32,064 bases of DNA, from contig JAPUIH010000031.1 of assembly GCA_027297205.1 (NCBI GenBank), forward strand, positions 1 to 32,064. Direction: 5' to 3'. The DNA is from SAR324 cluster bacterium. Its GTDB lineage: Bacteria; SAR324; JACQKK01. The translations under genes were made by a program, and so were the position numbers. Below the pieces are notes generated by a model. It searched no databases, was not told where the DNA came from, and saw nothing but the letters and a program-made list of their open reading frames with translations. Below, in pieces: positions 785-30,212 of the stretch (the first letter of the stretch is position 1; every line of letters starts with the position of its first letter).

Positions 785-1040
785 TCTCCGGGCAAAGGAT
801 AATCCCCCTATTGGCCTGACCGGGTAAAGTCCCACGCGTTCTTCGCTCCGGATGCTTGCCGTACGGCGTAGTGCCGGCCGGATCAGTTGCCAGTGCCGCG
901 GACAGAAGCAACTGACCCTGTCGCCGTTCTGGGCCATGGAATGGGCCTGGCATTCCGGAGATCGAGGGCTCCACACCCTGTATTTTCAATCTCTTGGGCC
1001 GGCGCCTCCTCCTGATCGAACTCGGCATGAACAGGCGAGC

Positions 1041-2657
1041 ATGAATTACGGATTCATAATCGACAATCGCAAATGCATTGGCTGCCATGCCTGCACGGTG
1101 GCCTGCAAGGCCGAACACGACGTTCCCGTGGGTGTCAACCGCACCTGGGTCAAATATGTGGAGAAGGGAATTTATCCTCATACCCGCCGCGTGTTCAGCG
1201 TGCTGCGCTGCAATCATTGCGAGGCGGCGCCCTGCGTGGAAATCTGCCCGGTGACCTCCCTGTTCATGCGTGAGGACGGCATAGTCGACTTTGATAGCGA
1301 GCGCTGTATCGGCTGCAAAGCCTGCATGCAGGCCTGTCCCTATGATGCCCTCTACATCGATCCCCAGAGCAACACCTCGGCCAAATGCAACTACTGCGCG
1401 CACCGCATCGATGTCGGGCTGGAGCCGGCCTGCGTTAACGTCTGCCCCGTGCACGCCATCGTGTCCGGCGACATGCAAGATCCGGATACGGAGATCGCGC
1501 GGCTGCTGAGCCGGCAACAGGTGACCGTCCGCAAACCGGAGAAGAATACCCGTCCCAAGTTGTTTTATATTGACGGGGACGAGGCGGCCCTGCGGCCGCA
1601 AGAGGCCCCTCCGCGCAATGAGTATACCCAGGCCGAGCAGGTCACCGGAGTGGGGCATTTCGCGGCTTACGCGGAACAATTGGCGGGGCTGAGCAATCGC
1701 TCCCTGCGCAGTAAAGTGCTGGCGGCGGACGAGCGTAAAGACAACGCCGCGGCCAGCGCCGCGAAGAACAATGGCGCGGCCCTGGCGGCCCCGCGGCGCA
1801 CCTACGATGCGCCCCACAAGGGTGTGCTGTGGGACTGGGAGGTCTCTGGCTACCTGTGGACCAAGTCCATCGCCGCGGGTGTGCTCTTTCTCCCCCTGCT
1901 GCTGGAACTGGCCGGGGGGGCGGCTTTGCCCGATCGGCTGGCGCGGGCGGCCGGGATCGTTTCCCTGCTTTTTCTGGCGCTCACCGGGGTTTTGCTGGTG
2001 AAAGACCTGGATCGCCCCGAACGATTTCTCTACGTGCTGCTACGGCCCCAATGGCGCTCCTGGCTGGTGCGCGGTGCGTATATCGTGCTGGGTTTCGGCT
2101 CGCTTACCACTCTGTGGACGCTGCATCTGTTTTTTGGGGACGCCGATTCGGCGGCGGGGGCTGTTGTATTGCTAAAAGCCCTGGTAATGCTGCTGGGCGG
2201 GCTCACCGCGGTGTACACCGCCTTTCTGTTCGCCCAGGCCAAGGGCCGGGATTTCTGGCAGAGCCCGCTTTTGCCGGTGCATATGCTGGTGCAAAGCGCC
2301 CTGGCCGGGCTGGCGGTGCTGCTGTTGATGGGCCGCCTGGCCGAGCTGGACGTGAGCGCCCAGCTGCTGCCCGTGTTGCAGGGGGGGCTGGTGCTGCACC
2401 TGGGCCTGCTGCTGTTGGAATTCAACCTGACCCATGTCACCGCGGATGCGGCTTCCGCCGCCGCGCTGATATTGCGTGGCCCCCTGCGCGCGCCGTTCTG
2501 GTCGGCGGTGCTGTTGGGCAATGCCCTGCCCCTGCTGATGCTGCTGCTGGACGGGGGTGGCCTGTTCCTGCTTCCGGCCTGCGTGCTGGTCTTGCTGTTC
2601 GCCCTGGTGATGGAGCATGTGTGGGTGCGCGCCCCACAACTGATCGCGCTAAGCTAG
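1041..2657 (+). CDS. Fused four-cluster ferredoxin (DmsB/PsrB/SoeB-like) and NrfD/PsrC-like membrane anchor
   Basis: Four Cys groups (CIGCHACTVAC, CNHCEAAPCVEIC, CIGCKACMQAC, CNYCAHRIDVGLEPACVNVC) followed by a multi-TM NrfD-like region (GYLWTKSIAAGVLFLPLLLEL...LLVKDLDRPERFLYVLLRPQWRSWLVRG). Natural start MNYGFIIDNRKC at 1041; the ORF is open from 852. Confidence 0.88.
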   Translation: MNYGFIIDNRKCIGCHACTVACKAEHDVPVGVNRTWVKYVEKGIYPHTRRVFSVLRCNHCEAAPCVEICPVTSLFMREDGIVDFDSERCIGCKACMQACPYDALYIDPQSNTSAKCNYCAHRIDVGLEPACVNVCPVHAIVSGDMQDPDTEIARLLSRQQVTVRKPEKNTRPKLFYIDGDEAALRPQEAPPRNEYTQAEQVTGVGHFAAYAEQLAGLSNRSLRSKVLAADERKDNAAASAAKNNGAALAAPRRTYDAPHKGVLWDWEVSGYLWTKSIAAGVLFLPLLLELAGGAALPDRLARAAGIVSLLFLALTGVLLVKDLDRPERFLYVLLRPQWRSWLVRGAYIVLGFGSLTTLWTLHLFFGDADSAAGAVVLLKALVMLLGGLTAVYTAFLFAQAKGRDFWQSPLLPVHMLVQSALAGLAVLLLMGRLAELDVSAQLLPVLQGGLVLHLGLLLLEFNLTHVTADAASAAALILRGPLRAPFWSAVLLGNALPLLMLLLDGGGLFLLPACVLVLLFALVMEHVWVRAPQLIALS

Positions 2658-2699
2658 GGCCTTCCTTGCCAAGGCATTTGTTAACCGCGAACTCTTAGT

Positions 2700-5570
2700 A
2701 TGGTGATGATCAACAAATCCTGGATCGAGAAAACCGCCGAGCGGCTGAAACTGATCAAACCTCTTGAAACGGGGGATGGCGAGGCTTTGCCGCGCCTGAG
2801 CGTGACCGACTTGCAGGGCTTTCCGCCCCCGGAGCGGTGGCGGGATTGGGAGGAGTATGATGCCGGAGCCTGGCCCCTGAAAAAGAAGAAGCACTACCAG
2901 ATTATTCCCACCACCTGCTTCAACTGCGAATCCGCCTGCGGCATGGTGGCCTATGTGGACAAGGAGACGGGCAGCGTACGCAAATTCGAGGGCAATCCCT
3001 ATCATCCCGCCTCGCGGGGCCGCAACTGTGCCAAGGGCCCGGCCACCATCAACCAGATCAACGATCCCGAACGGATTCTCTACCCGCTGCGGCGCAAAGG
3101 GGCGCGGGGCTCCGGGCAATGGGAACGGGTGAGCTGGGGGGAGGTGCTGGACGATATCGCGGGCAGAATCCGCAAGGCCATCCAGGAAGAGCGCCGTAAC
3201 GAGGTGGTGTATCATGTGGGCCGTCCCGGGCATGAAGGTTATATGGACCGCGTCCTCAAATCCTGGGGCGTGGACGGCCACAACAGCCATACCAACATCT
3301 GCTCCGCCGGCGCGCGCCTGGGCTATGCCCTCTGGCAGGGCATCGACCGTCCATCCCCGGATTACGCCAACGCCCGCTTTATCCTGCTCATCAGTTCCCA
3401 TCTGGAAACCGGGCATTACTTCAACCCCCACGCCCAGCGCATCATGGAAGGCATGCAGGCCGGCGCGGAGCTGGCGGTGATGGACCCCCGCCTCTCCAAC
3501 ACGGCCAGCATGGCCCGTTACTGGATGCCCACCTATCCCGGCTCGGAAGCCGCCGTGCTGCTGGCCATGGCGCGGGTGATCCTGGCGGAGGGGCTGTACA
3601 ACCGGGAATTTCTGGAAAACTGGGTCAACTGGCGTGCTTACATGGGCGCGCACCATCCCCGCGCGCCCCAGCAATTTGAGAGTTTCATCGAAAAGCTGCT
3701 GGAGCATTACGCGGAATTCACCCCCGCATACGCGGCCGCCGAGGCCCAGGTGGACGAGGAGACCATCGTCTCCGTGGCGCGCCGCATCGGGGCGGCGGGC
3801 ACCCGCTTTGCCTGCCACAACTGGCGCAGCGCGAGCTCCGGGAACCTGGGGGGCTGGCAGGTCGCGCGCTGCCTGCATTTCCTGAGTGTGCTGACAGGTT
3901 CCGTGGGCACCGTGGGGGGCACCCTGCCCGCGGCATGGAGCAAGTTCAAGCCCACCCTGTTCGACAATCCGCCGGCCCAGAAACTTTGGAACGAGTTGCA
4001 TTTTCCGGACGAGTACCCCCTGGCCCACTTCGAGATGAGCCCGATTCTGCCCCATATGATCAAGGAAGGCCGGGGCAGGATTGACGTGTATTTCACGCGG
4101 GTATTCAACCCGGTCTGGACTTTCCCGGACGGCTTCTCCTGGATCGAAACCCTGCGGGAGGAGAAGTACTTCGGCTGCCACATTGCGCTTACGCCGACCT
4201 GGAACGAGACTGCGTATTACGCGGATTACGTGCTGCCCATGGGTCATGCCTCCGAGCGCCACGACCTGAACAGTTACGAGACCCACGCGGGCATGTGGAT
4301 TGCCTTCAGGCAGCCCGTGCTGCGCCGGTTCGCCGAAGAGAACGGTCAGGCCGTGGAGTTCACCTATCAGGTCAATCCGGGTGAAGTGTGGGAAGAGGAC
4401 GAGTTCTGGATCGAGCTGTCCTGGCGCATTGACCCGGACGGCTCCCTGGGCATCCGCGAGCACTTCCTCTCCCCCTACCGGAAGGGCGAGAAGATCACGA
4501 TCGAGGAATACTACCGTTATATATTCGAGCATACCCCCGGCCTGCCCGAGGCGGCCCAGGCGGAGGGCATGAGCCCGCTCGCATACATGTGCCACTACGG
4601 GGCCTTCGAGATTTCGAGCAATGTGTACGAAAAGCACAACACCGTGCTGGACAAGAAAACCCTGCAAGGCACGCAGACCGACCAGGCCAGCGGTCTCATC
4701 ACCCGCGACGGCGCGCCCACGGGCGTGATGGCGCGGGGCGAGCCCCGGGAAGGCTTTCCCACCCCCTCACGCCTGCAGGAGTTTTACTCGCCCACCATGG
4801 AGGAGTGGGGTTGGCCCGAATATGCCCTGCCCGGTTACATCAAGAGCCATATCCATCCGGAAAAGCTGGCGCGGGACAAGCACGAATACGTGCTGGTGCC
4901 CACCTTCCGCCTGCCCAATCTAATTCACAGCCGGTCGGGCAACGCCAAGTGGCTGGTGGAGATAGCGCACCGCAATCCGATCTGGATTCATACCTCCATG
5001 GCCGAGGCCCTGGGCGTTGGCACCGGAGACCTGCTCAAGGTAAACACGGATATCGGTTATTTTATCGATAAGGTATGGGTGACCGAGGCCATCAAGCCCG
5101 GCGTGGTGGCCTGTTCCCATCACATCGGGCGCTGGCAGCTCGATGGAGGGCAGAAGGGCAACCAGTGGATGGCCAACACGGTGCGATTGGAGGAGGGCGG
5201 CGGCAAATGGCGCATGCATACGGTGACCGGCGTGCAGCCCTTCGCCAGTGACGATCCCGACTCCCGGCGCATGTTCTGGCGGGATGGTGGCGTGCACCAG
5301 AACATCACCCATGCGGTGCATCCGGACCCCGTCAGTGGCATGCATTGCTGGCACCAGCGGGTGCGCCTGGAAAAGCCCGGCCCGGAAGAAAAATACGGCG
5401 ATATCCTGGTGGATACCAAGCGCTCCTTCGCGGTCTACAAGGAATGGCTGGAAATGACGCGGCCCCCGCGGCGGGCGGACGGCCTGAGACGGCCCCTGTG
5501 GCTGGGGCGCCCCCTGCGCCCGGCCGATGAAGCCTTTTACAAGACCCCACGGACGGATGCGGCGGATTGA
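2700..5570 (+). CDS. Molybdopterin-dependent oxidoreductase catalytic subunit (DMSO reductase superfamily, SoeA/PsrA-like, no Tat signal)
   Basis: N-terminal Fe4S4 motif CFNCESACGMVAYVDKETGSVRKFEGNPYHPASRGRNCAKGPA, HTNICSAGARLGYALWQG at the Mo-ligand region, and C-terminal molydopterin-binding region (GNAKWLVEIAHRNPIWIHTSMAEALGVGTGDLLKV). 956 aa. No twin-arginine signal at the N-terminus. Confidence 0.9.
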   Translation: MVMINKSWIEKTAERLKLIKPLETGDGEALPRLSVTDLQGFPPPERWRDWEEYDAGAWPLKKKKHYQIIPTTCFNCESACGMVAYVDKETGSVRKFEGNPYHPASRGRNCAKGPATINQINDPERILYPLRRKGARGSGQWERVSWGEVLDDIAGRIRKAIQEERRNEVVYHVGRPGHEGYMDRVLKSWGVDGHNSHTNICSAGARLGYALWQGIDRPSPDYANARFILLISSHLETGHYFNPHAQRIMEGMQAGAELAVMDPRLSNTASMARYWMPTYPGSEAAVLLAMARVILAEGLYNREFLENWVNWRAYMGAHHPRAPQQFESFIEKLLEHYAEFTPAYAAAEAQVDEETIVSVARRIGAAGTRFACHNWRSASSGNLGGWQVARCLHFLSVLTGSVGTVGGTLPAAWSKFKPTLFDNPPAQKLWNELHFPDEYPLAHFEMSPILPHMIKEGRGRIDVYFTRVFNPVWTFPDGFSWIETLREEKYFGCHIALTPTWNETAYYADYVLPMGHASERHDLNSYETHAGMWIAFRQPVLRRFAEENGQAVEFTYQVNPGEVWEEDEFWIELSWRIDPDGSLGIREHFLSPYRKGEKITIEEYYRYIFEHTPGLPEAAQAEGMSPLAYMCHYGAFEISSNVYEKHNTVLDKKTLQGTQTDQASGLITRDGAPTGVMARGEPREGFPTPSRLQEFYSPTMEEWGWPEYALPGYIKSHIHPEKLARDKHEYVLVPTFRLPNLIHSRSGNAKWLVEIAHRNPIWIHTSMAEALGVGTGDLLKVNTDIGYFIDKVWVTEAIKPGVVACSHHIGRWQLDGGQKGNQWMANTVRLEEGGGKWRMHTVTGVQPFASDDPDSRRMFWRDGGVHQNITHAVHPDPVSGMHCWHQRVRLEKPGPEEKYGDILVDTKRSFAVYKEWLEMTRPPRRADGLRRPLWLGRPLRPADEAFYKTPRTDAAD

Positions 5571-5591: not shown

Positions 5592-7448
5592 TTAAAATGC
5601 CAGGGAGAATCCGCTGTCGGGAATTTCCATCGCGCTCAAGTCTCCCTCGGCAAGCACCTCGTTCAGGCTGAACACGGTGGGCAGGATATTGCGCGCATAG
5701 AAGCGGGCCGTGGCAATCTTACCTTGATAATACTGGGCGTCCTGGCTGTCTTCGGCGGCATTCTTCAAGCCTTCCTCCGCGGTGAGCGCCCCTTCCAGCA
5801 GCAGCTTTGCGATGAGCGTCTTGGACATGCTTTCCAGAAAGCGCGTCGCGGTGAGCAGGACTAACTCCCGTTTGTCCTGGGCGAAGAATTCCATATACTT
5901 GCCCAAGACCACGTTGAATCCTTCCATGGCCCGGCCCAGCGCGGCACTCTCGGCCTCGTAGCCCTTGTGGCCCCCGAGGGCTTTTACGAATTCAGCCATT
6001 TCACCGGTAAAGCGGCCGATAACCGCCCCGCCGTTCTGGGTCAGTTTGCGCCCCACCAGGTCCAGGGCCTGAATGCCGTTGGTGCCCTCGTAGACAGGGA
6101 ATATTCTGGAATCGCGCATATACTGCTCCGCCGGGTAGTCGGCCGTGTAGCCGGCTCCGCCATAAACCTGGAGCGCCAGGGAAGACACATGCACCGCCAT
6201 GTCGGAGACGAAGGATTTGGCCAGGGGGATGAACAGCCCGAAGTAATCCGTCAGGGCGTCAGCCGCCTCGCGGTCCGACTTGCTCAATGTTGTGGCTTCG
6301 TCCATCAGCCGTACTGTAAAAAAGATCAGCGCACGGCAGCCCTCCACGGTGGATTTCATCTCCATCAGCATGCGCCGCACGTCGGGATGCTCAATGATGG
6401 GCACCGCACCGCTTTCCGGCCGGCCATCGCGGAAGTGCGCCCCTTGCTTGCGGGTGCGGGCATAACTGAGGGCGTTCAGATAGGCCGTGGAGGCTACGGC
6501 CAGGGACTGCACGCCCACGCCTATGCGGGCTCCGTTCATCATGAGGAACATCTTGCGGATGCCTTCGCCCGGCTCCGCGCTTTCCTCCCTTTCGCCGCCC
6601 AGCAAATAGCCATCGCAGTTACCCGCCTCGCCAAAGGCCAGCGCCGCGGTGGCGGAGCCGTGAATGCCCATCTTGTGCTCGATACTGGTGCAAGTGACGT
6701 CGTTGAATTCTCCCAGGGAGCCGTCGGGGTTGACCTTGAACTTGGGCACGATGAACAGGGAGAGGCCGCGGGTGCCCTTGGGCGATCCTTCGATCCGCGC
6801 CAACACCAAATGCACGATATTTTCAGTGATATCGTGATCGCCCCCGGAGATGAAAATCTTATTTCCGGTGATCTTGTAGCTGCCGTTGGAATTGGGCACG
6901 GCCTTGGTGCTGCTCAATCCCACGTCCGAGCCCGCGTGCGATTCCGTGAGCACCATGGTGCCGCCCCAGGTGCCGTTATCCAGCTTGGCGCTGTAAATCT
7001 CGCGCTGCTCCGGAGTGCCGAAGGCGCGTATCACGTTCGCCGCGCCGTTGGTGAGCGCGGGATACATCTGAAACGCGGTGTTGGCTCCACTCATCATTTC
7101 CGTAACGGCGATGCCGAGCAAGTTGGGTGCGCCCTGCCCTCCCGCCTCTTCGGACATGGACAGGGTGTTCCAGCCGCCCTCATAATACTGCTTCCAAAGC
7201 TCGTGCATCTCCGGGGGCACTTTTACGCCATCCTCCGTTTTCTGCACGCCGGTCCTGTCCGAGGATTGCAGGGTCGGCCCGATTACTTCCGATGCGAAAT
7301 GGTGGGCTTCCTTGAGAATCATGCGCGCGTCTTCCTCGCTGAAATGGTCGAAGGGCGGGGAAGAAAACAGATCGGTTAGCCTGAACTGCTCGAACAGGGT
7401 AAATTCCAGCTCCTTCAGATCGGCTTTGAAAAAATTAACATCGCTCAT
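5592..7448 (-). CDS. Acyl-CoA dehydrogenase (large, about 600 aa, with C-terminal extension)
   Basis: GGTMVLTESHAGSDVGLSSTKA, ISGGDHDI, LALQVYGGAGYTADYPAEQYMRDSRIFPVYEGTNGIQALDLVGRKL. Start taken at MSDVNFFKADLKELEF (7448); ORF open from 7496. Confidence 0.93.
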   Translation of the reverse strand: MSDVNFFKADLKELEFTLFEQFRLTDLFSSPPFDHFSEEDARMILKEAHHFASEVIGPTLQSSDRTGVQKTEDGVKVPPEMHELWKQYYEGGWNTLSMSEEAGGQGAPNLLGIAVTEMMSGANTAFQMYPALTNGAANVIRAFGTPEQREIYSAKLDNGTWGGTMVLTESHAGSDVGLSSTKAVPNSNGSYKITGNKIFISGGDHDITENIVHLVLARIEGSPKGTRGLSLFIVPKFKVNPDGSLGEFNDVTCTSIEHKMGIHGSATAALAFGEAGNCDGYLLGGEREESAEPGEGIRKMFLMMNGARIGVGVQSLAVASTAYLNALSYARTRKQGAHFRDGRPESGAVPIIEHPDVRRMLMEMKSTVEGCRALIFFTVRLMDEATTLSKSDREAADALTDYFGLFIPLAKSFVSDMAVHVSSLALQVYGGAGYTADYPAEQYMRDSRIFPVYEGTNGIQALDLVGRKLTQNGGAVIGRFTGEMAEFVKALGGHKGYEAESAALGRAMEGFNVVLGKYMEFFAQDKRELVLLTATRFLESMSKTLIAKLLLEGALTAEEGLKNAAEDSQDAQYYQGKIATARFYARNILPTVFSLNEVLAEGDLSAMEIPDSGFSLAF

Positions 7449-7594
7449 GAAACAGCTCCTAATTGGCTGCGAAGTCGCCTTGGTCTCCCTATGCACTCCC
7501 CATTGCCGACGGCGTCAGGTGCAGGTTTAATAACGCCTTTTTGTTAATTATGACCCAGAATATAATGACTCCCCAAATTTTAATATGGGATCGG

Positions 7595-8158
7595 TTACGG
7601 ACTGTACAAATAGGGGCGCATCCGCCGAGTGTAGTCCCTGATACTGTAGAACAGCCGCAGCAGCAGGAACGCCAGCAAATAATACAGCCCCAGGCCGTGG
7701 ATTTTGCTCCAGATCAGGAATGGGCTGTCCGGCAGCAGGGAGTAGCCATATCTGGCGGTCATGAACATTTCAATTCCGGAAATCAGCACGGCGCAAAGGC
7801 TGATCCAGTATCCAAGCCCGGCCACGACCCGCATGGGGGGGCGCGCTCTGATGACCGGCCATGGCCATCCGTTCCTGGCCGCACGAAACCCGCGCGGAAT
7901 GCTATGGACCAGCATGACCAGGCGGCACAGGCACTCGATCAAAATGACCAGTGCAAACAGCCAGTGCAGTACGCGCAGCGCCGGATAGGGCAGCAGCGTC
8001 CCGCCTGTGGAAAATTTCAGGTAGAGGCCCGTCGCGATCAGGCCCAGCAGGGCGAGCAGACCGGCCGCCCTGCCCGTTTGCACCAGCATACGGTCGGTGT
8101 TGGCCAGCCAGTCCAGCAGATCGCCGCTGCTGATTTGCGGAATTTTAATGAACCGCAT
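7595..8158 (-). CDS. Cytochrome b (HupC/HyaC or cytochrome b561-like) membrane subunit of the hydrogenase-like complex
   Basis: About four TM helices (AAGLLALLGLIATGLYL, LHWLFALVILIECLCRLVMLVHSI, VVAGLGYWISLCAVLISGIEMF, KIHGLGLYYLLAFLLLRLF) with candidate heme His residues (LHW, VHS, IHG). Start ATG at 8158 overlaps the large-subunit stop. Confidence 0.75.
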   Translation of the reverse strand: MRFIKIPQISSGDLLDWLANTDRMLVQTGRAAGLLALLGLIATGLYLKFSTGGTLLPYPALRVLHWLFALVILIECLCRLVMLVHSIPRGFRAARNGWPWPVIRARPPMRVVAGLGYWISLCAVLISGIEMFMTARYGYSLLPDSPFLIWSKIHGLGLYYLLAFLLLRLFYSIRDYTRRMRPYLYSP

Positions 8159-9635
8159 CGCTGGCACTGAAGAAATATGAATGCACAATCTGCGAGGCGC
8201 GCCGGCGGTCCCGCTCCGACCGCAAATCCAGGCCGGCTGAGTTGAGCGCAAGTTCGATACCGCTCGAGTTTTCGTTCTCGTCCCGTGGGGCGCCATTCCA
8301 GGTGCTGGCCGAGACGATGTCATATAAGGCGATACGGCCATTTCGCAGTACAAGGCGATGTTGGACAATGCCGGCGGGCGCCTCGATATGCGCCACCGCT
8401 TCGCCGTGCCCCTTGGAGGCGCCGTTGTCCTTTGCGATCGTGGGTTGCCCTGGATTCAGATGGTCCAGCAGAGATTCGCATCTCTCCACCAGTGGATGCA
8501 ATTCCCCCAACCGGGCCAGAATGCGCCCTCCGGTGGTGTTGGCATCCAATACAGGCACCCCCAGCACTTCCTGGATGCGTTCCACCAGTGGCGCCACATG
8601 GCTGCGCGATCCGCTGAGATGGGTGATCACCAGGCGCGCCAAGGCGCCGGTTTCCGCCCGGCGGGCTTGATATAGGGGAGCCTTGATCCAACTGTAGGCG
8701 CCTTGTTTTTGCGGAGCTTCCTCCAGCAATTGGAAATTCCCGCCGGCCTTGAGCGGAACACGGTAGAAGGCGTACTGGAGATTTTCCGTGACGTTTGGCT
8801 GAAAGGATTCCAGGGTATTGCCGAACAGCACGCCCCCGGGGAATAAGGACTCTTCGGGGCCCGTATCGTCTCCGATTGTGCCGGCGCTCAGATATGCCTG
8901 GGAGCCCTTGCCCAGGGTTTTCGTCTCCTCCCGCTTTTCGAGCAACAGCAGACCGTCCTCCAGGGGCGTCTCCCGCAGGAATGGCCCGATCTCGCGCATC
9001 AGGGTGCGCAGCCTGAACACGAGCGGCTCCCGAAGCGGAGTCGTAGCTCCGCCAGGGACAATGGACATCACCAGGGGAAATTTCCCTCCAATAATGGCCA
9101 TCATGCGCTGCAGGAGGGACAGCGCCCGCAACGCCCGGGCCTGATTCTCGGCGAGCTGGTTGATTTCGCTGTCCGAAAATCGGTGCGGGAAGCGGTGGCG
9201 CGCCCAGGAGCCCGGCGGTTGTGCACCCATGGCTTGGGCCACGCGCCGCAGCTCCGGCGAAGGGCCCTTGTATGCGGCCAGGGCGCTGGGGGGAATGAAA
9301 TCGGGCAGCGCCTGAAAATAAAACTGCCGCAGATTGGCATGAAGAAATGACAAGGTATGCAACAGCTCCCGCAACAACAGCCCATTTTGCGCTGTCCCGG
9401 TATCCGTGGCCGCCTCCCACGCGCTAATGGCTGCAAGGGCATGGCTGACGCCGGAGTCCGCGCCAATGAGCTGGGTCATATAAACCGCGTCCAGGGGAGC
9501 CCTGCCGCGCAGCAGCTTTTCAAATCCCCGCGGCCGCGAGGCAGCCACCATGATGGTCCCCCCATCATCCTGGACAAGTTGCGCGGCGCCCTCGATCCGC
9601 TTGATTTGCATGCGCAAGGCCGCCATATCAAGCAT
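8145..9635 (-). CDS. [NiFe]-hydrogenase large-subunit homologue lacking all Ni-Fe cysteine ligands
   Basis: Hydrogenase framework: RIEG near the N-terminus, GVSHALAAISAWEAA after the L1 position, LLHTLSFLHANLRQFYFQALPDF, STWNGAPRDENENSSGIELAL, C-terminal VHSYFFSASDAVH*. L1 is TQLIGADSGVSH where RVCGICxxSH is expected. L2 is YFFSASDAVH where FDPCxxCAVH is expected. Confidence 0.85.
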   Translation of the reverse strand: MLDMAALRMQIKRIEGAAQLVQDDGGTIMVAASRPRGFEKLLRGRAPLDAVYMTQLIGADSGVSHALAAISAWEAATDTGTAQNGLLLRELLHTLSFLHANLRQFYFQALPDFIPPSALAAYKGPSPELRRVAQAMGAQPPGSWARHRFPHRFSDSEINQLAENQARALRALSLLQRMMAIIGGKFPLVMSIVPGGATTPLREPLVFRLRTLMREIGPFLRETPLEDGLLLLEKREETKTLGKGSQAYLSAGTIGDDTGPEESLFPGGVLFGNTLESFQPNVTENLQYAFYRVPLKAGGNFQLLEEAPQKQGAYSWIKAPLYQARRAETGALARLVITHLSGSRSHVAPLVERIQEVLGVPVLDANTTGGRILARLGELHPLVERCESLLDHLNPGQPTIAKDNGASKGHGEAVAHIEAPAGIVQHRLVLRNGRIALYDIVSASTWNGAPRDENENSSGIELALNSAGLDLRSERDRRRASQIVHSYFFSASDAVH

Positions 9636-10635: not shown

Positions 10636-10810
10636 CCGCCTGATTATTCCCTTTGCAATCGGATTGGCGATTTCGTGTGATTGGAAGAGGTGCATGGCCT
10701 CCCCTCCTGTTTATAGCCCTCGGGCATCGCGCTTTCAACCTTGGACTTGCGGCAGCCGCAAGCAATCTGATGGTTATCCGCTCAAAAAGATAATTATTTC
10801 GGGTTTATGC

Positions 10811-10839
10811 TTGTCAAACAAGAATAGTTTGTGTAGAAC
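10811..10839 (+). promoter_or_regulatory. Candidate sigma70-type promoter for the S24 regulator and its leader
   Basis: TTGTCA (10811-10816), 17-nt spacer, TAGAAC (10834-10839). Lies in the divergent region upstream of the structured leader. Confidence 0.35.
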
Positions 10840-10868: not shown

Positions 10869-11158
10869 CCGCAGCGGTGTGAGGTGTAACGGCACGAACC
10901 GCTGCGGCTAAGGTGGGGAAGGGAAGTTGCAGTAACGAAACCCGGAGAAGGGCGAAATGCCGAAAATGCTGCTCTTACGGGAAGGGTGGTTCAGGGATCG
11001 GAACGGAACTGGCCCAAGGATGGCACCCTTGCCATGGTGCGCCACCGGCTGGCAGCCTTTCTCCGGGCTTTCGATGGGGCAGGGATTGCGCCATTGATTG
11101 ACCATGCCGGATGCCACGAGCGGCGGCGAAAACCGTCAGGAACCACCCTTATGGGAGG
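10869..11158 (+). ncRNA. Candidate structured 5' leader RNA or cis-regulatory element upstream of the S24 regulator
   Basis: Perfect complementary pairs: 10869-10877/10899-10907 (CCGCAGCGG/CCGCTGCGG), 10941-10949/11059-11067 (CCCGGAGAA/TTCTCCGGG), 10982-10992/11140-11150 (AAGGGTGGTTC/GAACCACCCTT). Hairpins at 11020-11035, 11036-11046 and 11047-11057. No convincing ORF. Confidence 0.55.
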
Positions 11159-11167
11159 GATTCAAGG

Positions 11168-11827
11168 ATGAAGACACTCGCCGAGGTTTTACGGAATCGC
11201 ATCCAGGAGATGGGCTTTGAGGATATCAAGGAGTGCGCCCGTCAGTTTGACGTGCCCTATGAATTGCTCCGGAAGGTGATATCCGACGGCCATCTACCCA
11301 AGGACAAGACCCTGTTGTTCTACGCGGAGAAGTTCGGACTAAACGCGGCGGACCTGATTTCCATCGTATACCGGCAACGTGCGCCCCAGCATCTCAAGTA
11401 CTTGTTTGACAGCCCCTCGGGCCTGACGCCCGCGCCGATGCCCGAAACCAGCAGGCAGGCGCCCGTGCTGGGCCGCGCAGCCTGCGGCGAGTGGTTGGAA
11501 TCCTACCAGGTGGAGCCGGACGCCTACGAGCCGGTGGACCTCGGCGATGATGATGCGTTCTTTGTAACGGCCGAGGGGGAAAGCATGGTGGGAGGCAATA
11601 TCCCGCCAGGCGCATACCTGTTGGTATCGCCCCGGGCACGGGTCAGCAATGGGGACATTGTGCTGGCCCGATTGGGTGAAGAGGAATTTACGGTCAAGAG
11701 CTACTTCCGTCAGGCAAGCGGCACCACCATTCTCCAACCCATGAATTCGGCCTACGAGCCGTTGGTGCTCGGGCCGGAAGAGCCGCTTACCGTGATGCGA
11801 ATTACCGAGATTCGTATTAAAACCTGA
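11168..11827 (+). CDS. HTH plus S24/LexA-CI-like peptidase-domain transcriptional regulator
   Basis: N-terminal HTH-like region (ECARQFDVPYELLRKVISDGHLPKDKTLLFYAEKFGL). S24 features: GRAACGEW cleavage-like site, AEGESMVGGNIPPGAYLLV (Ser) and EEFTVKSYFR (Lys). GGGAGGG SD upstream of ATG 11168. Confidence 0.85.
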   Translation: MKTLAEVLRNRIQEMGFEDIKECARQFDVPYELLRKVISDGHLPKDKTLLFYAEKFGLNAADLISIVYRQRAPQHLKYLFDSPSGLTPAPMPETSRQAPVLGRAACGEWLESYQVEPDAYEPVDLGDDDAFFVTAEGESMVGGNIPPGAYLLVSPRARVSNGDIVLARLGEEEFTVKSYFRQASGTTILQPMNSAYEPLVLGPEEPLTVMRITEIRIKT

Positions 11828-12253: not shown

Positions 12254-13039
12254 ATGATGCCGAACCTGCTGCAGTTCGATCCCACCCAAATCATTGGATT
12301 TGTAGTCATATTCACCCGAATTACGGGGATTATGGTGATATCGCCCATTCTTGGCGACACCAATATCCCCATGCAGATCAAAGTCGCTATCGCCTTTGTG
12401 TTTTCTCTGGTTTTCTTTCCGGTCGTTGGAGCGGCGGATTTGGGTCCAAATCCGGAGCTAAGCCGAATCTTGTATGTGGCCGTGACTGAATTCGGCCTGG
12501 GTCTGGTGATGGGATTTGCCGTGCGGATGTTATTCACGGGCGTGAGCCTTGCAGGGGAAGTGGCAGGCTTTCAGATGGGTGTGGGTGTGGCCAATATCTT
12601 CGATCCGAGTTCCGAGCAGCAAGTCTCTCTGATCGGTCAGATTCAGGTCATATTTGCCCTGCTGCTCTTTGTTACGCTGGACGGGCATCACTTGCTGATC
12701 AAATCCCTCGTGGAAAGCTACGCCATTGTTCCGCCGGGAGGGCTGGCCCTGAGCGAACAGGGAATGCGCTTTTTTGTAGCGCAAGCGGGCAATATATTCC
12801 TGATCGGCCTGCAGATCGGCGCACCCTTGATCGTGGCCTTGCTGGCGGCCAACTTCAGTATGGGTCTGATCGCGCGCTCGGTGCCGCAAATGAACGTAAT
12901 CGTGGTCGGGTTCCCGTTTTCGATAGGCCTGGGGCTGCTGTTCCTATTCTTGGGATTTCCGTATTTTATGCGTTCCATGATGGTCATTATCGAGCGGCTG
13001 GATGACATCCTGATGGCCGCACTGAAGCTGCTGGGATAG
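12254..13039 (+). CDS. fliR: Flagellar export apparatus protein FliR
   Basis: VVIFTRITGIMVISPILGDTNIPMQIKVAIAFVFSLVFFPV, EVAGFQMGVGVANIFDPSSEQQVSLIGQ. Size and gene order fit FliR. Start may be 12254 or 12257. Confidence 0.95.
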   Translation: MMPNLLQFDPTQIIGFVVIFTRITGIMVISPILGDTNIPMQIKVAIAFVFSLVFFPVVGAADLGPNPELSRILYVAVTEFGLGLVMGFAVRMLFTGVSLAGEVAGFQMGVGVANIFDPSSEQQVSLIGQIQVIFALLLFVTLDGHHLLIKSLVESYAIVPPGGLALSEQGMRFFVAQAGNIFLIGLQIGAPLIVALLAANFSMGLIARSVPQMNVIVVGFPFSIGLGLLFLFLGFPYFMRSMMVIIERLDDILMAALKLLG

Positions 13040-13052
13040 GCGAGGATTATCC

Positions 13053-14129
13053 ATGGCGGAAGCCGAAGCACAAGAAAAAACCGAGGTTCCAACCCAGAAA
13101 AAGCGGGAGGATTCCCGTAAAGAGGGCATGGTGGCATCCAGCCGTGAGGTTTCCTCCGCGGCGTTGCTGGGCGCCTTCGCGCTGTATTTTCTGGTTGCGG
13201 GTCAGAGCAACATGGGCACCATGAAATCCGTGTGGCGCCACTCCTTTACCAATCTTGCGGCGGGCGATCTCACCATCGCGGAATTGGGACGAGTGTTCAA
13301 GGATGTCACGATGACCCTTGCGCCCATGCTGCTCGGGGTGTTCGGGCTGATATTTATCGTGGCGCTGCTGGCCTCCTACATTCAGGTAGGCGCGGTTTTT
13401 AACGCCCTGAAGTTTCAGCCGAACCGCCTCAATCCCCTCAACGGCATCAAGCGTATCTTCTCTTCCGTGGGCCTGGCCGAGTTTCTGAAGAGCTTGTTCA
13501 AGATGGGGGTGATTGGCTACATCACCTACTTTTCCTACCAGCAGGAAACGGAGGGGATGCTGCAACTGTCCAGGTTGTCCGTTGAGGGAATCCTGGCTTT
13601 CAATGCCTCTCTGCTGGGCGTTTTGTTCGGACGGGTGGCACTGGCTTTGGTGATTTTGGCTATCTTCGATTATCTGTTTCAGCGCTGGAACATGGAGCAG
13701 CGAATTAAGATGACCCGCCAGGAAGTTAAGGACGAATTAAAACAGACGGAAGGTGACCCACAACTGCGCGCAAGGGTACGACAAGTGCAAAGAGATGTAT
13801 CACGGGCCCGGATGATGCAAAATGTGCCCAAGGCCGATGTGGTTGTCACCAACCCGACCCATTACGCGGTGGCCCTGATGTACGATCGTGAGGTCATGAC
13901 AGCTCCTAGACTGGTGGCCAAGGGAGCGGGCCATATCGCCCAACGTATCAGGGATATAGCCGAAGAAAACGAGGTGCCGATCGTGGAAAATCCACCCATG
14001 GCCAGGGAAATATACGCTCAGGTGGAAATCGGCAATGAAATTCCCGAAGAATTTTTCAAAACAGTGGCGGAAATTCTTGCCTATGTGTACCGCATCAAGG
14101 GGCAGACCGCCGAGCCTCCGCTAAACTAA
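13053..14129 (+). CDS. flhB: Flagellar export apparatus protein FlhB
   Basis: EKTEVPTQKKREDSRKEGMVASSREV N-terminus; autocleavage motif VVTNPTHYAVALMYD. Confidence 0.97.
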   Translation: MAEAEAQEKTEVPTQKKREDSRKEGMVASSREVSSAALLGAFALYFLVAGQSNMGTMKSVWRHSFTNLAAGDLTIAELGRVFKDVTMTLAPMLLGVFGLIFIVALLASYIQVGAVFNALKFQPNRLNPLNGIKRIFSSVGLAEFLKSLFKMGVIGYITYFSYQQETEGMLQLSRLSVEGILAFNASLLGVLFGRVALALVILAIFDYLFQRWNMEQRIKMTRQEVKDELKQTEGDPQLRARVRQVQRDVSRARMMQNVPKADVVVTNPTHYAVALMYDREVMTAPRLVAKGAGHIAQRIRDIAEENEVPIVENPPMAREIYAQVEIGNEIPEEFFKTVAEILAYVYRIKGQTAEPPLN

Positions 14130-14202: not shown

Positions 14203-16290
14203 ATGGCCGTAGGAACCGCAGAAACTACATTGATGAAGGTCGGCCGCCATACCGACTTTATGCTGGCCATTGGTGTGGTCAGTATCATCATGGTGTTGGT
14301 GCTGCCCCTCGCGCCGATCCTGCTGGATTTGCTGCTGACGACCAGCATCGCCGTGGCGGTGTTGATTCTATTCGTTTCGCTGTTTACCAGGACGACGCTG
14401 GACTTTTCGGCTTTTCCGACCATCTTGCTTATTTCCACCTTGTTCCGCCTTTCGCTGAACGTTGCGTCCACCCGGCTCATTCTGGTGAATGGCAACCAAG
14501 GCTTGGCCGCGGCGGGGAACGTCATCAAATCCTTCGGCGATTTTGTGGTCGGCGGTAACTTTGTGGTGGGGATTATCATTTTCCTGATCCTGGTGGTTAT
14601 CAACTTTGTGGTAATCACCAAAGGCGCGGGGCGGATCGCCGAGGTGGCGGCACGCTTTACCCTGGACGCCATGCCGGGCAAGCAGATGGCCATCGACGCC
14701 GATCTCAATGCGGGCATCATCGAAGATACGGAAGCCAAGGAGCGCCGCGTCAGGATTCAGCAAGAGGCGGATTTTTACGGTGCCATGGATGGTGCCAGCA
14801 AGTTCGTACGGGGGGATGCTATCGCGGGTTTGATCATCACCGGCGTCAACATCATCGGCGGACTGGTGATCGGGGTCTTTCAATTCGGCATGGATCTGGA
14901 AACGGCCCTAGACACCTACACGGTCTTGACCGTGGGCGATGGCCTGGTCGCACAGATTCCGGCTCTGATCGTCTCCATGGCCGCTGGTATCGCCGTTACC
15001 AAGGCTTCGGGCGACGAAACCCTGGCCGATGACATCAAAAAGCAGTTGCTGGGCAATCACCGGGCCATGTCCGTGGCGTCGCTGGTGATTTTTGGCTTCG
15101 CCATCATTCCCGGCATGCCCACTTTGCCCATGATGGTGGTGGCGTCGACCGTGGGCTTAATTGCCTATTTGACCTACAGCGGAAAACAGCGGGCAAGCGC
15201 GGAAGAGGTGGAAGCCACGGCTGCCGAAGCGCAGCAGGCCGCCGAGGAGGCCCCGGAAGACATCGAGGCATTGCTGCCCATCGACCGCCTTGGCATTGAG
15301 CTTGGGTTTGGGCTGATTCCTCTGGTTGATGCCGAGCAGGACGGGGAGCTGCTGGAGCGGATCAAGTCCATCCGCCGCCAGTTGGCGACGGAAATGGGCT
15401 TTATCGTTCCGCCCATCCATATCAAGGACAATCTGGATCTGGCCCCGGGCGCCTATTCCATCATCATCAAAGGGGTGGAAGTGGGGCGCTCCGAAGTGAT
15501 GCTGGATCACTTGCTGGCCATGAAGACTGGCGATGTGGACGAGGATATTGCCGGGGTGGACACCATCGAACCCGCATTCGGTTTGCCCGCCCTGTGGATT
15601 CCACCCGAAGATCAGGAGCGCGCGCAGTTCGCCGGCTTTACCGTGGTCGATCTGCCCACGGTGCTGGCCACGCACCTGATTGAAGTTGTAAAGCGTCATG
15701 CGCCGGAGTTCCTGGGCAGGCAGGAAGCACAACGGCTGATCGACAATTTCGGCAAGGATGAGCCCAAGGTGGTGGAGGAGTTGATCCCCAACGTACTCAC
15801 CCTGGGTGTGGTGCAGAAAGTGATGCAGAACCTGCTGCGTGAGCGGGTGTCCATTCGCGATCTGCACACGGTGATGGAAACCCTGGCCGACATGGGGGGA
15901 TTAACCAAGGACCCGGACCTGCTCACCGAGTATGTGCGCCAATATATGGCGCGCACCATCACGCGCCAGTATCAGACGCCTGACGGCACGCTGCCGCTGG
16001 TTTCGCTCTCCCAGGACTGGGAGGACAAGCTGGCCGCCGCCATCCAGACCACGCCCCAGGGCACTTATCTGGGCCTGGATCCCGAAATGGCGCAAAACGT
16101 TATTCAGAACATTGAAGGGCAGATGGAAAACTTCGCCGTATTCAGTTACCAGCCCATTTTGCTCTGTTCGCCGTTGATCCGGCCCCATGTGAAGAAATTG
16201 ACTGAACGGTTTATTCCGAATCTGGTGGTGCTGTCCCACAACGAGGTCTCCCACGACGTGCGAATCGAGTCTTTGGGACTGGTAGGCTAG
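14203..16290 (+). CDS. flhA: Flagellar export apparatus protein FlhA
   Basis: TLFRLSLNVASTRLIL, GDFVVGGNFVVGIIIFLILVVINFVVITKGAGRIAEVAARFTLDAMPGKQMAIDADLNAGII. 695 aa. Confidence 0.98.
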   Translation: MAVGTAETTLMKVGRHTDFMLAIGVVSIIMVLVLPLAPILLDLLLTTSIAVAVLILFVSLFTRTTLDFSAFPTILLISTLFRLSLNVASTRLILVNGNQGLAAAGNVIKSFGDFVVGGNFVVGIIIFLILVVINFVVITKGAGRIAEVAARFTLDAMPGKQMAIDADLNAGIIEDTEAKERRVRIQQEADFYGAMDGASKFVRGDAIAGLIITGVNIIGGLVIGVFQFGMDLETALDTYTVLTVGDGLVAQIPALIVSMAAGIAVTKASGDETLADDIKKQLLGNHRAMSVASLVIFGFAIIPGMPTLPMMVVASTVGLIAYLTYSGKQRASAEEVEATAAEAQQAAEEAPEDIEALLPIDRLGIELGFGLIPLVDAEQDGELLERIKSIRRQLATEMGFIVPPIHIKDNLDLAPGAYSIIIKGVEVGRSEVMLDHLLAMKTGDVDEDIAGVDTIEPAFGLPALWIPPEDQERAQFAGFTVVDLPTVLATHLIEVVKRHAPEFLGRQEAQRLIDNFGKDEPKVVEELIPNVLTLGVVQKVMQNLLRERVSIRDLHTVMETLADMGGLTKDPDLLTEYVRQYMARTITRQYQTPDGTLPLVSLSQDWEDKLAAAIQTTPQGTYLGLDPEMAQNVIQNIEGQMENFAVFSYQPILLCSPLIRPHVKKLTERFIPNLVVLSHNEVSHDVRIESLGLVG

Positions 16291-16339: not shown

Positions 16340-17644
16340 ATGCAAATCAAACGTTACCGCGCAGCGGATATGCACGAGGCGTTGAGCAAGGTCAAAAAAG
16401 ACATGGGCGCGGATGCCGTGATTCTATCCACCCGCCAGGTGCGGGGGGGAGGCGGAACTTTCGGCCTGTTCGGCAAACCCATGCTGGAGGTCACCGCCGC
16501 CCGCGAGACGCCGGGCGACGACGGGGGCAACAGTACCCTGCGCGCCGCTTTGACCGGGGGCGACAGGGCGCTGGCCGTCAATGAGGGGGAGCATCGGCCC
16601 GCGGATGGCGCGGCAAGCGAATTAATGCGCCAGATGCTTTCCAGGAACAAGATGGAGACCGAAAGCTTGCTGGCACCCTTGCAGGATGACATCCACGATC
16701 TGAAAGAGATTATGCAGTCCGTGGGGGATTCCCAGAAAAATGGCCTGCGCGAGGAGACCGCGCTGCAGCAAATCCGTAGCGACCTGGCCAACATGCACCA
16801 GTTGCTGCACTCCCTGACCGCTCAATCCACAACCCTGCGCGGGGCGGAATATCCCGACAACCTGGTGGTGCTCTACCAGCAGTTGATCTTTAACGGGATG
16901 GAGGAAAAATTCGCGCGGCGGCTGGTGGAAGAATCCCTGAAAAGCATCCCGGGCAAGGAGATGGAAGATTTCTCCTACGTAAAGATCTTCCTGGCCCGCA
17001 TGCTGATGAAGATCATCAACACCACAAACGGCATCCAGGCCGATGGAGATCAGCAGAAAGTGGTGGCGCTGGTCGGTCCCACAGGCGTGGGCAAGACCAC
17101 CACGGTGGCCAAGCTGGCCTCCGAGCAACTGCTCAAGCATCGCAGGAAGGTGGCGCTGATCACCATCGACACCTTCCGTATCGCCGCGGTGGAGCAGCTC
17201 AAGGTGTATGCGAAAATCATGGGCGTTCCCGTCTCGGTGGTGCAGAGCAAGGGGGAACTGCGCCAGGCCATTGACAGAAATGCCGGCGCGGATGTCATAT
17301 TCGTGGATACAGGCGGGCGTTCCCAGCGCGACGACTTGCAAATGTCGGAAATCTACAAGCTCTTTGGAGATGCGGAAAACATCGACATCCTGCTGACCCT
17401 GAGCGCCACCACCAAGGATGCGGACCTGACCGAGATAACCCGGCGCTTCAATGAAATCCCTCTTTCCGGAGTGGTGTTTACAAAGCTGGACGAGAGCACG
17501 GCCTTTGGTTCTATGTTCAACCATGCCATCCGCTTCAAAATGCCAATTGCCTATTTGACCACGGGTCAGAAGGTGCCCGAGGACATGGAGTTGGCCACGC
17601 GGGAGCGCTTGGTCGACCTGATGTTGAATATCACCGATGCCTGA
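16340..17644 (+). CDS. flhF: Flagellar SRP-like GTPase FlhF
   Basis: MQIKRYRAADMHEALSKVKKDMGADAVILSTR; GTPase motifs VGPTGVGKTTTVAKLA, TIDTFRIAAVEQL, VDTGGRSQRD, TKLDE. Confidence 0.97.
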   Translation: MQIKRYRAADMHEALSKVKKDMGADAVILSTRQVRGGGGTFGLFGKPMLEVTAARETPGDDGGNSTLRAALTGGDRALAVNEGEHRPADGAASELMRQMLSRNKMETESLLAPLQDDIHDLKEIMQSVGDSQKNGLREETALQQIRSDLANMHQLLHSLTAQSTTLRGAEYPDNLVVLYQQLIFNGMEEKFARRLVEESLKSIPGKEMEDFSYVKIFLARMLMKIINTTNGIQADGDQQKVVALVGPTGVGKTTTVAKLASEQLLKHRRKVALITIDTFRIAAVEQLKVYAKIMGVPVSVVQSKGELRQAIDRNAGADVIFVDTGGRSQRDDLQMSEIYKLFGDAENIDILLTLSATTKDADLTEITRRFNEIPLSGVVFTKLDESTAFGSMFNHAIRFKMPIAYLTTGQKVPEDMELATRERLVDLMLNITDA

Positions 17645-17723: not shown

Positions 17724-18638
17724 ATGGATCAAGCAACCACCCTCCGCAAAATCGTCAATCTCAACAAATTCGAAGAAGGCCCGCAGCCCAAGTTGAGCGG
17801 CCGCATGCGCGTGATCGCCATTACCAGCGGCAAAGGCGGAGTCGGCAAAACGAATATTGTGCTCAATCTGTGCATGGCCCTGAGCAGTCGTAATCGCCGC
17901 GTATTGTTGCTCGATGCGGACATGGGGCTGGCCAATGTGGATGTGTTGCTGGGGCTCACTCCCAAATATACCCTTGAACACGTGATGAATCGGCAGAAGG
18001 ATGTGCGGGACATCATGCTCACCGGTCCCGCCGGATTCCGCATCCTTCCCTCGGGTTCGGGCATCAGCGAGCTCTCTGAAATGACCTATGAGCAGCAAAT
18101 GCACCTGTTTCAGGAGCTGAGCAAGATCGACGACGATCTGGATTATCTGTTTATCGATACGGGCGCGGGCATATCCTCCAACGTGCTGCGTTTTAATGCC
18201 TCGGCCAACGAGATTCTGATTATCGCCAATCCGGAGCCCACCTCCATTACGGATGCCTATGCGCTGATGAAGCTGCTGGCCATTAAGTACCACATCCGAG
18301 ATTTTGGCCTTATTGCCAATTCCGTCACTTCCCGGGCCGACGGGCAGGGGGTCTACGACACTCTGGAGCGGGTGTGCAGCCAATTTCTCAAAGTGAACCT
18401 GAACTTTCTGGGCTGGATTCCCTTCGACGCCAATTTCCGCAGGACCGTGCGCCAGCAAAAGCCGCTGCTGGAGTTGTATCCGGATTCCCCCGCGGCAAAG
18501 AGTATTTCCCGCATCGCCGATCTGCTGGACAGCCACTCCGTCACGCAATTGCCTCCTCAAGCCGCCGCCGGCGCTGAAATCGGGCCGGAAAAAGCCTCCA
18601 GTTTTTGGGACCGTTTATTGCATTGGAAGAAGATGTAA
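17724..18638 (+). CDS. flhG: MinD-like ATPase FlhG/FleN, flagellar number regulator
   Basis: ITSGKGGVGKTNIVLNLCMAL deviant Walker A, LLDADMGLANVDVLLGL; directly downstream of flhF. Confidence 0.95.
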   Translation: MDQATTLRKIVNLNKFEEGPQPKLSGRMRVIAITSGKGGVGKTNIVLNLCMALSSRNRRVLLLDADMGLANVDVLLGLTPKYTLEHVMNRQKDVRDIMLTGPAGFRILPSGSGISELSEMTYEQQMHLFQELSKIDDDLDYLFIDTGAGISSNVLRFNASANEILIIANPEPTSITDAYALMKLLAIKYHIRDFGLIANSVTSRADGQGVYDTLERVCSQFLKVNLNFLGWIPFDANFRRTVRQQKPLLELYPDSPAAKSISRIADLLDSHSVTQLPPQAAAGAEIGPEKASSFWDRLLHWKKM

Positions 18639-18720
18639 CGACTGCCCGGAGGTGCGTCTTCGCGCCTGTGGGTTGCCGCCGATGCAGTGGAACGCAGTCT
18701 CTGGAAAACTGGAGCAGTGC

Positions 18721-19503
18721 ATGAACAACCCCTATGCCCAGTACGCATACCAGGGGAAGTCCAGGGAGGAGATGGTGCTGGAATACGCGCCGCTGGTGAA
18801 GCAGATCGCCAACCGGCTGGCAGCCCGCCTTCCCGACAATCTGGACAGGCAGGATCTCATCCAGGCGGGCATGATCGGCTTGCTGGATGCGATCGAAAAG
18901 TACGACCCCCAGAAAGAGACCCGCTTCCGCACATACGCGGAGTTCCGCGTCCGGGGGGCCATGCTGGATGACCTGCGCGCCTCCGACTGGATTCCCCGCT
19001 CGGTGCGGGAAAACGCCGACCGCGTAGGCCGGGCCATTCGCTCCCTGCAATCGGAACTGGGCCGCCAGCCGGAAGAAGCCGAAATCGCCGACAGCCTGAA
19101 AATCTCCCTGGCGGAGTACCACACCCTGCTGCTCAAGGCCAAAGCCGTGCCCCTGCTCTCCCTGGAAAATCTGGGAAGTTTTGAAGGCGATGAGCAGCAC
19201 GGTTCGATTTTCGACCTGCTGGAAGATCCCGACTGTACCGATCCCCTGGATACTCTGGCCCTGCAACACTTGCAGGAGCGGCTCAGCGATGCCATCCGCG
19301 AGCTGCCGGAAAAGGAGCAGTTGCTGCTCACTATGTACTATGATGAAGAGTTGAATCTGAAGGAAATTGGCGCGGTGATGGGTGTCACCGAGTCCCGGGC
19401 CTCGCAAATCCGCACCCAGTCCATCATGCGCCTGCGCAATGCGCTCAAAAGCACCGCCCCCACCGATCTCATCGACCGAATGCTCGACCGCCGGGCCACC
19501 TAG
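18721..19503 (+). CDS. fliA: Flagellar sigma factor FliA (sigma28)
   Basis: LVKQIANRLAARLPDNLDRQDLIQAGMIGLLDAIEKYDPQKETRFRTYAEFRVRGAMLDDLRASDWIPRSVR, and a region 4 HTH at MYYDEELNLKEIGAVMGVTESRASQIRTQ. Start MNNPYAQYAYQG at 18721. Confidence 0.96.
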   Translation: MNNPYAQYAYQGKSREEMVLEYAPLVKQIANRLAARLPDNLDRQDLIQAGMIGLLDAIEKYDPQKETRFRTYAEFRVRGAMLDDLRASDWIPRSVRENADRVGRAIRSLQSELGRQPEEAEIADSLKISLAEYHTLLLKAKAVPLLSLENLGSFEGDEQHGSIFDLLEDPDCTDPLDTLALQHLQERLSDAIRELPEKEQLLLTMYYDEELNLKEIGAVMGVTESRASQIRTQSIMRLRNALKSTAPTDLIDRMLDRRAT

Positions 19504-29663: not shown

Positions 29664-30212
29664 CTATTTCTTCCTTGTAAGATTATCCCAGTAGGTATCG
29701 AACTCCCCCGAATTCTTGAGCAGCTTGCGGCGGAAAGCCACCACTTTCCCGAATGGGGTTGCCGGTGCCGCGAGGGCATGGAAGGCGACCCAATTGTCCT
29801 TGCGCAGCCGGTCCACCACCTGTTCCTTGAAACCCGCCAGGGAATATTGCTCATTGCGGTAGAATATTGTGCCGTCCTGGCGGATGCGGTAGTTCAGCCT
29901 GACCGTGGGGCGGGCCTTGCGCCTCAAGTCCCGCGCCGCCAAGGCCCGCCTGCGCATCGCCTCCTTGTGCTCGATAAAGGCGAACTTTTCCATGATGGGA
30001 GCAAGTTGGGCCAGAGCCGCCTCGATCACGGTCTTTTCCTTTTGCACCACGGCCAGTTGTTCCTGGGCCGCCTCCAGGCGCACTTCGGCTTCAGATTCGG
30101 TGGTCCTGACGAAAAACAGGATCAAGACCAGGAACGCCACCAGCAAAAACAGCAGGTCAATGAACGCGATAAACGGTCCCTGGGAGCGCTTTTCTTCCGG
30201 TGCGACGATCAT
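29664..30212 (-). CDS. ExbD/MotB-like single-TM protein with coiled-coil linker
   Basis: N-terminal TM with Asp (FIAFIDLLFLLVAFLVLILFFV), a Glu/Ala/Gln-rich helix, then ExbD-like LNYRIRQDGTIFYRNEQYSLAGFKEQVVDRL. Confidence 0.7.
   Translation of the reverse strand: MIVAPEEKRSQGPFIAFIDLLFLLVAFLVLILFFVRTTESEAEVRLEAAQEQLAVVQKEKTVIEAALAQLAPIMEKFAFIEHKEAMRRRALAARDLRRKARPTVRLNYRIRQDGTIFYRNEQYSLAGFKEQVVDRLRKDNWVAFHALAAPATPFGKVVAFRRKLLKNSGEFDTYWDNLTRKK

Follow-up and report, generated by a model that had tools for sequence, protein, structure and literature searches.

What is the role of a complex that has the three subunits of a membrane-bound [NiFe] hydrogenase and has lost all four cysteines that bind the NiFe centre? 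The question is raised by three overlapping genes of a SAR324 cluster bacterium, encoding a small subunit, a large subunit, and a cytochrome b (the trio; Table 1), which lie in a 32,064-nucleotide stretch of DNA (the window).

Table 1. The trio and neighboring features in the window, with strand and the evidence for each assignment.
Feature	Position	Strand	Evidence
Acyl-CoA dehydrogenase, next gene downstream of the trio	5592-7496	-	Pfam; synteny
Cytochrome-b subunit, 187 aa, b561/Ni_hydr_CYTB-like	7595-8158	-	Weak Pfam PF01292 match (E=2.6e-5); His columns
Large-subunit homologue without NiFe ligands, 496 aa	8145-9635	-	Pfam NiFeSe_Hases (E=1.6e-54); ligand columns
Small-subunit homologue, 355 aa, Tat RR, C-terminal hydrophobic segment	9628-10695	-	Pfam NiFe_hyd_SSU_C (E=1.4e-25); ligand columns
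Promoter-like site TTGACA-16-AATTAT (10/12), upstream of the small subunit	10790-10817	-	Consensus match only; 2 found vs 1.1 expected
LexA/CI-like repressor (peptidase S24 domain), transcribed divergently from the small subunit	11111-11827	+	Pfam PF00717; synteny
fliR	12254-13039	+	Pfam
flhB	13053-14129	+	Pfam
flhA	14203-16290	+	Pfam
flhF	16340-17644	+	Pfam
flhG-like	17724-18638	+	Pfam
fliA-type sigma factor	18652-19503	+	Pfam

Ligand positions of the large subunit

By overall similarity the protein belongs to the hydrogenase large-subunit family: it scores 186 bits against Pfam NiFeSe_Hases (cut-off 25.8), and solved [NiFeSe]/[NiFe] hydrogenases match it at E~1e-35, the nearest being a [NiFeSe] hydrogenase (E=3e-35); its NCBIfam equivalog score (221.8) is far under the cut-off of 600. 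The ORF is intact, and its two ligand motifs, L1 (MTQLIGADSGVSHALAA, coded at about 9436-9480) and L2 (VHSYFFSASDAVH, coded at 8145-8190), align without gaps with those of CxxC homologues, the ligand positions reading G58, S61, S490, and D493. An earlier note on this DNA, which had reported the replacement of all four cysteines, was right in both motifs and coordinates.

We compared these columns in 18 members (from the window's family, f1, represented by ten genomes including the window's, and from a second family, f3, of another order of the same class) and 19 canonical relatives. Each of the four ligand columns has cysteine in 19/19 of the canonical relatives and in 0/18 of the members; since the pattern recurs in 18 separate genomes, an assembly error is excluded and the pattern is far from chance. 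As read from the alignment, the replacements are patterned and non-random: position 58 is Ser in 15 of the 18 members, position 490 holds Ser in one family and Gln in most members of the second, and position 493 (the bridging cysteine in hydrogenases) is Asp in 17 members and Glu in one (Asp/Glu in 18/18), while Glu15 and His65 are invariant (18/18). Substitutions this specific and conserved would be expected if Ser/Ser/(Ser or Gln)/Asp, together with Glu15 and His65, made up a catalytic or metal site of a new, non-NiFe kind in the old pocket. We consider such a site improbable, since the residues at the old-ligand positions are not the same in both families (Ser or Gln at 490) and since, with the proximal Fe-S cluster lost (see below), an added cofactor would be needed to connect it electronically to the medial cluster. 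AlphaFold models, made from three-row alignments, reached only low pLDDT values (44 and 35).

The large-subunit gene also stops at the His of L2, so that the C-terminal maturation peptide is absent. We rejected this absence as a diagnostic feature, because some CxxC relatives (L022, L039, and L087) stop at the L2 His as well.

HypD is required to make the Fe(CN)2CO of the NiFe centre. Its gene is absent from 8 of the 10 f1 genomes, including the window's own genome (G000) and G003 (97% complete), and from the f3 genome G042 (98% complete); it is present in the f1 genomes G004 and G009, the latter of which also encodes a canonical hydrogenase. The missing HypD in these eight f1 genomes provides independent support, beside the ligand columns, for the view of the earlier note that this protein should hold no NiFe centre.

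Clusters of the small subunit and hemes of the cytochrome b

The large-subunit gene is overlapped by the small-subunit gene (8 nt) and by the cytochrome-b gene (14 nt), in agreement with the earlier note, and the Tat-type RR of the small subunit is confirmed and invariant (R25, R26). The four proximal-cluster positions (69, 72, 153, and 186) have cysteine in none of the small subunits compared (0/17), position 153 being Glu/Asp in 17/17. The eight cysteines of the distal and medial clusters are invariant (17/17). In addition, the distal-cluster His is changed to Cys, and position 273 carries an additional Cys (medial cluster), each in 17/17 small subunits. A Pro-to-Cys change such as that of the E. 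coli Hyd-1 P242C variant yields a medial [4Fe-4S] cluster. Cys273 is aligned with the Cys of that variant in the matched structure (chain 4gd3), and the structure of E. coli Hyd-1 P242C with its cytochrome b has been described (PMC4771823). Two four-Cys Fe-S sites are thus predicted in the small subunit, and we infer that both are [4Fe-4S].

The cytochrome b subunit has lost half of its heme ligands. All four heme His are found in the canonical cytochromes (5/5); in the trio, those at column 103 (TM2) and column 222 (the first of TM4) are kept in 17/17 sequences, and those at column 61 (TM1) and column 236 (the second of TM4) are lost in 17/17. If an N-in topology is assumed, the surviving bis-His heme would be the periplasmic-side heme. 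A phmmer search with the cytochrome b gave no relative of known structure.

Distribution, conservation, and relation to known complexes

Searching 58 genomes, we found the large subunit in all nine other f1 genomes, no two of them from the same genus (41-51% identity), and in f3 a further eight homologues (26-32% identity). The phylum has a single class; a 16S gene of an f2 genome contains the exact target of the FISH probe SAR324-1412, that of an f1 genome has one mismatch to it, and other genomes of the phylum have more. SAR324 genomes from an aquifer were reported to have group 1d hydrogenases by HydDB (PMC9031357). Among 52 genomes of the SAR324 phylum, the trio is present in 10/10 f1, 8/10 f3, 0/31 f2, and 0/1 f4 genomes; the weaker matches in f2 and f4 score like canonical small subunits. 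In a wider set of 383 genomes, some 330 of which lie outside the phylum, the other strong small-subunit matches come only from CxxC hydrogenases, and the best matches outside the phylum (G188, G248, G157, G135, and G275) all retain CxxC; in this sampling, the trio is restricted to one phylum. A maximum-likelihood tree, from which group 4 hydrogenase rows were left out, places the Cys-less rows in one clade (100/99), within which f1 and f3 are each monophyletic. The earlier note had allowed that this copy might be the sole exception among CxxC-bearing homologues, by recent decay; CxxC is absent throughout the 18-member clade.

One further locus, a divergent hydrogenase-like pair (L086:1138-3626, G041:C53) with intact CxxC, an odd small subunit, and no C-terminal peptide, is placed beside the Cys-less clade in the tree. 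Its branch is very long, and the placement may reflect either an intermediate or a long-branch artefact.

In comparisons inside a single genus, four-fold sites approach saturation (22-24 of 76-82 are identical), whereas protein identity is 60-61% in the large subunit and 68-72% in the small subunit; the proteins are therefore under purifying selection. Together with homologues that also have no CxxC, this supports a maintained non-hydrogenase function, as the earlier note had proposed. If the trio were a degenerate hydrogenase on its way out, a functionless pseudo-enzyme, we would understand why the loss in the active site extends beyond the four cysteines (e.g., R421, D488, and H17 are gone in 18/18 large subunits); but the ORFs are intact in 18 genomes, the gene order with its overlaps is kept, selection is purifying, and the eight cluster cysteines and two heme His do not vary, so that this reading is already contradicted by conservation and strikes us as highly implausible. 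In every genome, the NiFe centre, the proximal cluster, and one heme have been lost together, a pattern that suits a remodelled circuit and not scattered decay. The linked loss of the proximal cluster and one heme goes beyond the earlier note, as do the restriction to one phylum and the flagellar linkage described below.

In architecture, the trio resembles the group 1 membrane-bound [NiFe] hydrogenases (such as E. coli Hyd-1, HyaABC), with which it shares three subunits, a Tat-exported small subunit with a C-terminal anchor, medial and distal clusters (the distal one altered), a cytochrome b, and the large-subunit fold, in which E15, H65, R89, K318, R371, H426, and W446 are conserved. It differs from them in having neither NiFe ligands nor proximal-cluster ligands, in the change of the distal His to Cys, and in the missing one of two heme sites. 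As predicted from these residues, the product of the trio is not a hydrogenase by the ligand test, and by architecture it is hydrogenase-derived. The earlier note recognized no named family with these features. This holds for the periplasmic group 1 type: our literature keyword searches for a NiFe-less architecture of that type found no description, and the reports read among the results concerned only Ehr. It does not hold more widely, since CxxC-less relatives are known in Ehr and complex I.

Ehr complexes contain a hydrogenase-like large subunit without CxxC, of the group 4 lineage, and their function is unknown or unrelated to H2 (PMC6349859, PMC10284858). Their relatives are group 4 hydrogenases and Mrp-type subunits, and they are not exported by the Tat pathway, whereas the trio groups with periplasmic group 1-type subunits and a cytochrome b. 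The best matches of the trio are group 1-type subunits, which sets it apart from Ehr, and the neighboring gene is the cytochrome b, with no Mrp-like gene observed there. In respiratory complex I, Nqo4/49-kDa and Nqo6/PSST have the fold of the hydrogenase large and small subunits, have lost NiFe, and work with quinone. Complex I keeps the cluster at the proximal position (N2) and has neither the medial nor the distal one, whereas the trio shows the reverse. Complex I is thus a precedent for a hydrogenase fold that loses its metal; the trio appears to be a second, independent case, from a periplasmic lineage and with the complementary clusters kept, and offers a natural experiment on which hydrogenase parts serve what. 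It also bears on surveys: homology-based counts of H2 oxidisers (by HydDB, or by Pfam without a check of the ligands) may misassign genes of this kind.

From these comparisons we consider it reasonably likely that the trio encodes a maintained, Tat-exported, membrane-anchored redox module that is derived from a periplasmic group 1-type [NiFe] hydrogenase, is not a hydrogenase itself, and exchanges electrons with quinone and a periplasmic partner. Such a complex would no longer react with H2. Its cofactor chain would lie at the outer face of the membrane and lead from the medial cluster over the distal cluster to heme b; both ends of the electron wire would have been removed, leaving a three-cofactor core with neither the transmembrane heme pair nor the catalytic metal. 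We propose that one party to the electron exchange is the quinone pool, which would meet the heme at its periplasmic side, and that the other is a partner or ligand in the periplasm, which would dock at the former place of the proximal cluster and the active site, the large subunit being retained as a scaffold and a partner-binding surface. Against this proposal, the medial cluster has no obvious redox partner, so that electron transfer to anything beyond it would be hypothetical.

Flagellar gene neighborhood

In f1 the trio is divergent from the S24 repressor, which is followed by fliR-flhB-flhA-flhF-flhG-fliA, and this order is found in six f1 genomes in all; the repressor itself is at the same place, between the trio and fliR, in at least eight. 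On the other side, the acyl-CoA dehydrogenase adjoins the trio in most f1 genomes and is probably a co-oriented neighbor. In f3, the trio lies downstream of fliI and is linked to it in 7 of 8 genomes; for example, locus L036 reads flgB-flgC-fliE-fliF-fliH-fliI-phosphoesterase-SSU-LSU-CYB-coaE-vanY, with overlapping genes (4-nt overlaps). The trio genes are not downstream of fliI in the fliI clusters of the f2 genomes and of the f1 genome G003.

That the trio adjoins two different flagellar clusters exceeds what chance would lead us to expect. It could also reflect ancestral synteny (one cluster that was later split) or hitchhiking. Co-occurrence of the trio and flagella is uninformative, since FlhA is found in 51 of the 52 genomes of the phylum, and the trio is not required for flagella, since genomes without it have them too.

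The neighborhood bears on a reading in which the trio is a redox sensor: the clusters and heme b would come to redox equilibrium with the quinone pool, and the cofactor-free large subunit would signal, by changing its conformation, to the flagellar apparatus or its export system (energy taxis or a motility switch), so that net electron flow would be unnecessary. A wire that is dead-ended, with no catalytic terminus, agrees with such a sensor, as does the position beside fliR-flhBA in f1 and beside fliI in f3; yet the trio contains no signalling domain, and the flagella of genomes without the trio are a reminder that linkage is not function. We regard the sensor as possible, with low confidence. 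For the electron-exchanging module that we prefer, an output tied to motility, through redox sensing or assembly, would likewise be a guess from the flagellar linkage, and one that we hold to be rather unlikely. Similarly tentative, and doubtful in our view, is the broader suggestion that, in much of the phylum, a shorn hydrogenase was recruited into the flagellar system as a periplasmic redox component linked to quinone (a sensor, or an accessory of the motor or of export). The trio nevertheless provides testable candidates for a link between redox state and motility.

Several other genes near the trio or in the window deserve mention. The S24/LexA-like repressor is a candidate regulator of the trio and the flagellar genes alike. 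In four f3 loci, a calcineurin-like phosphoesterase gene (L036:11063-11959) is found between fliI and the small subunit. At 852-5570 (forward strand) of the window, an Fe-S protein with a fused NrfD-like membrane part is encoded together with a large molybdopterin oxidoreductase; these proteins resemble the thiosulfate/tetrathionate/DMSO reductase families, at scores far under the NCBIfam cut-offs. Finally, a 519-aa protein of the MotA/TolQ/ExbB family, with a weak Pfam match, is encoded at 30209-31768 (reverse strand), and its gene is overlapped by a 182-aa ORF with one apparent membrane segment (29664-30212, reverse strand).
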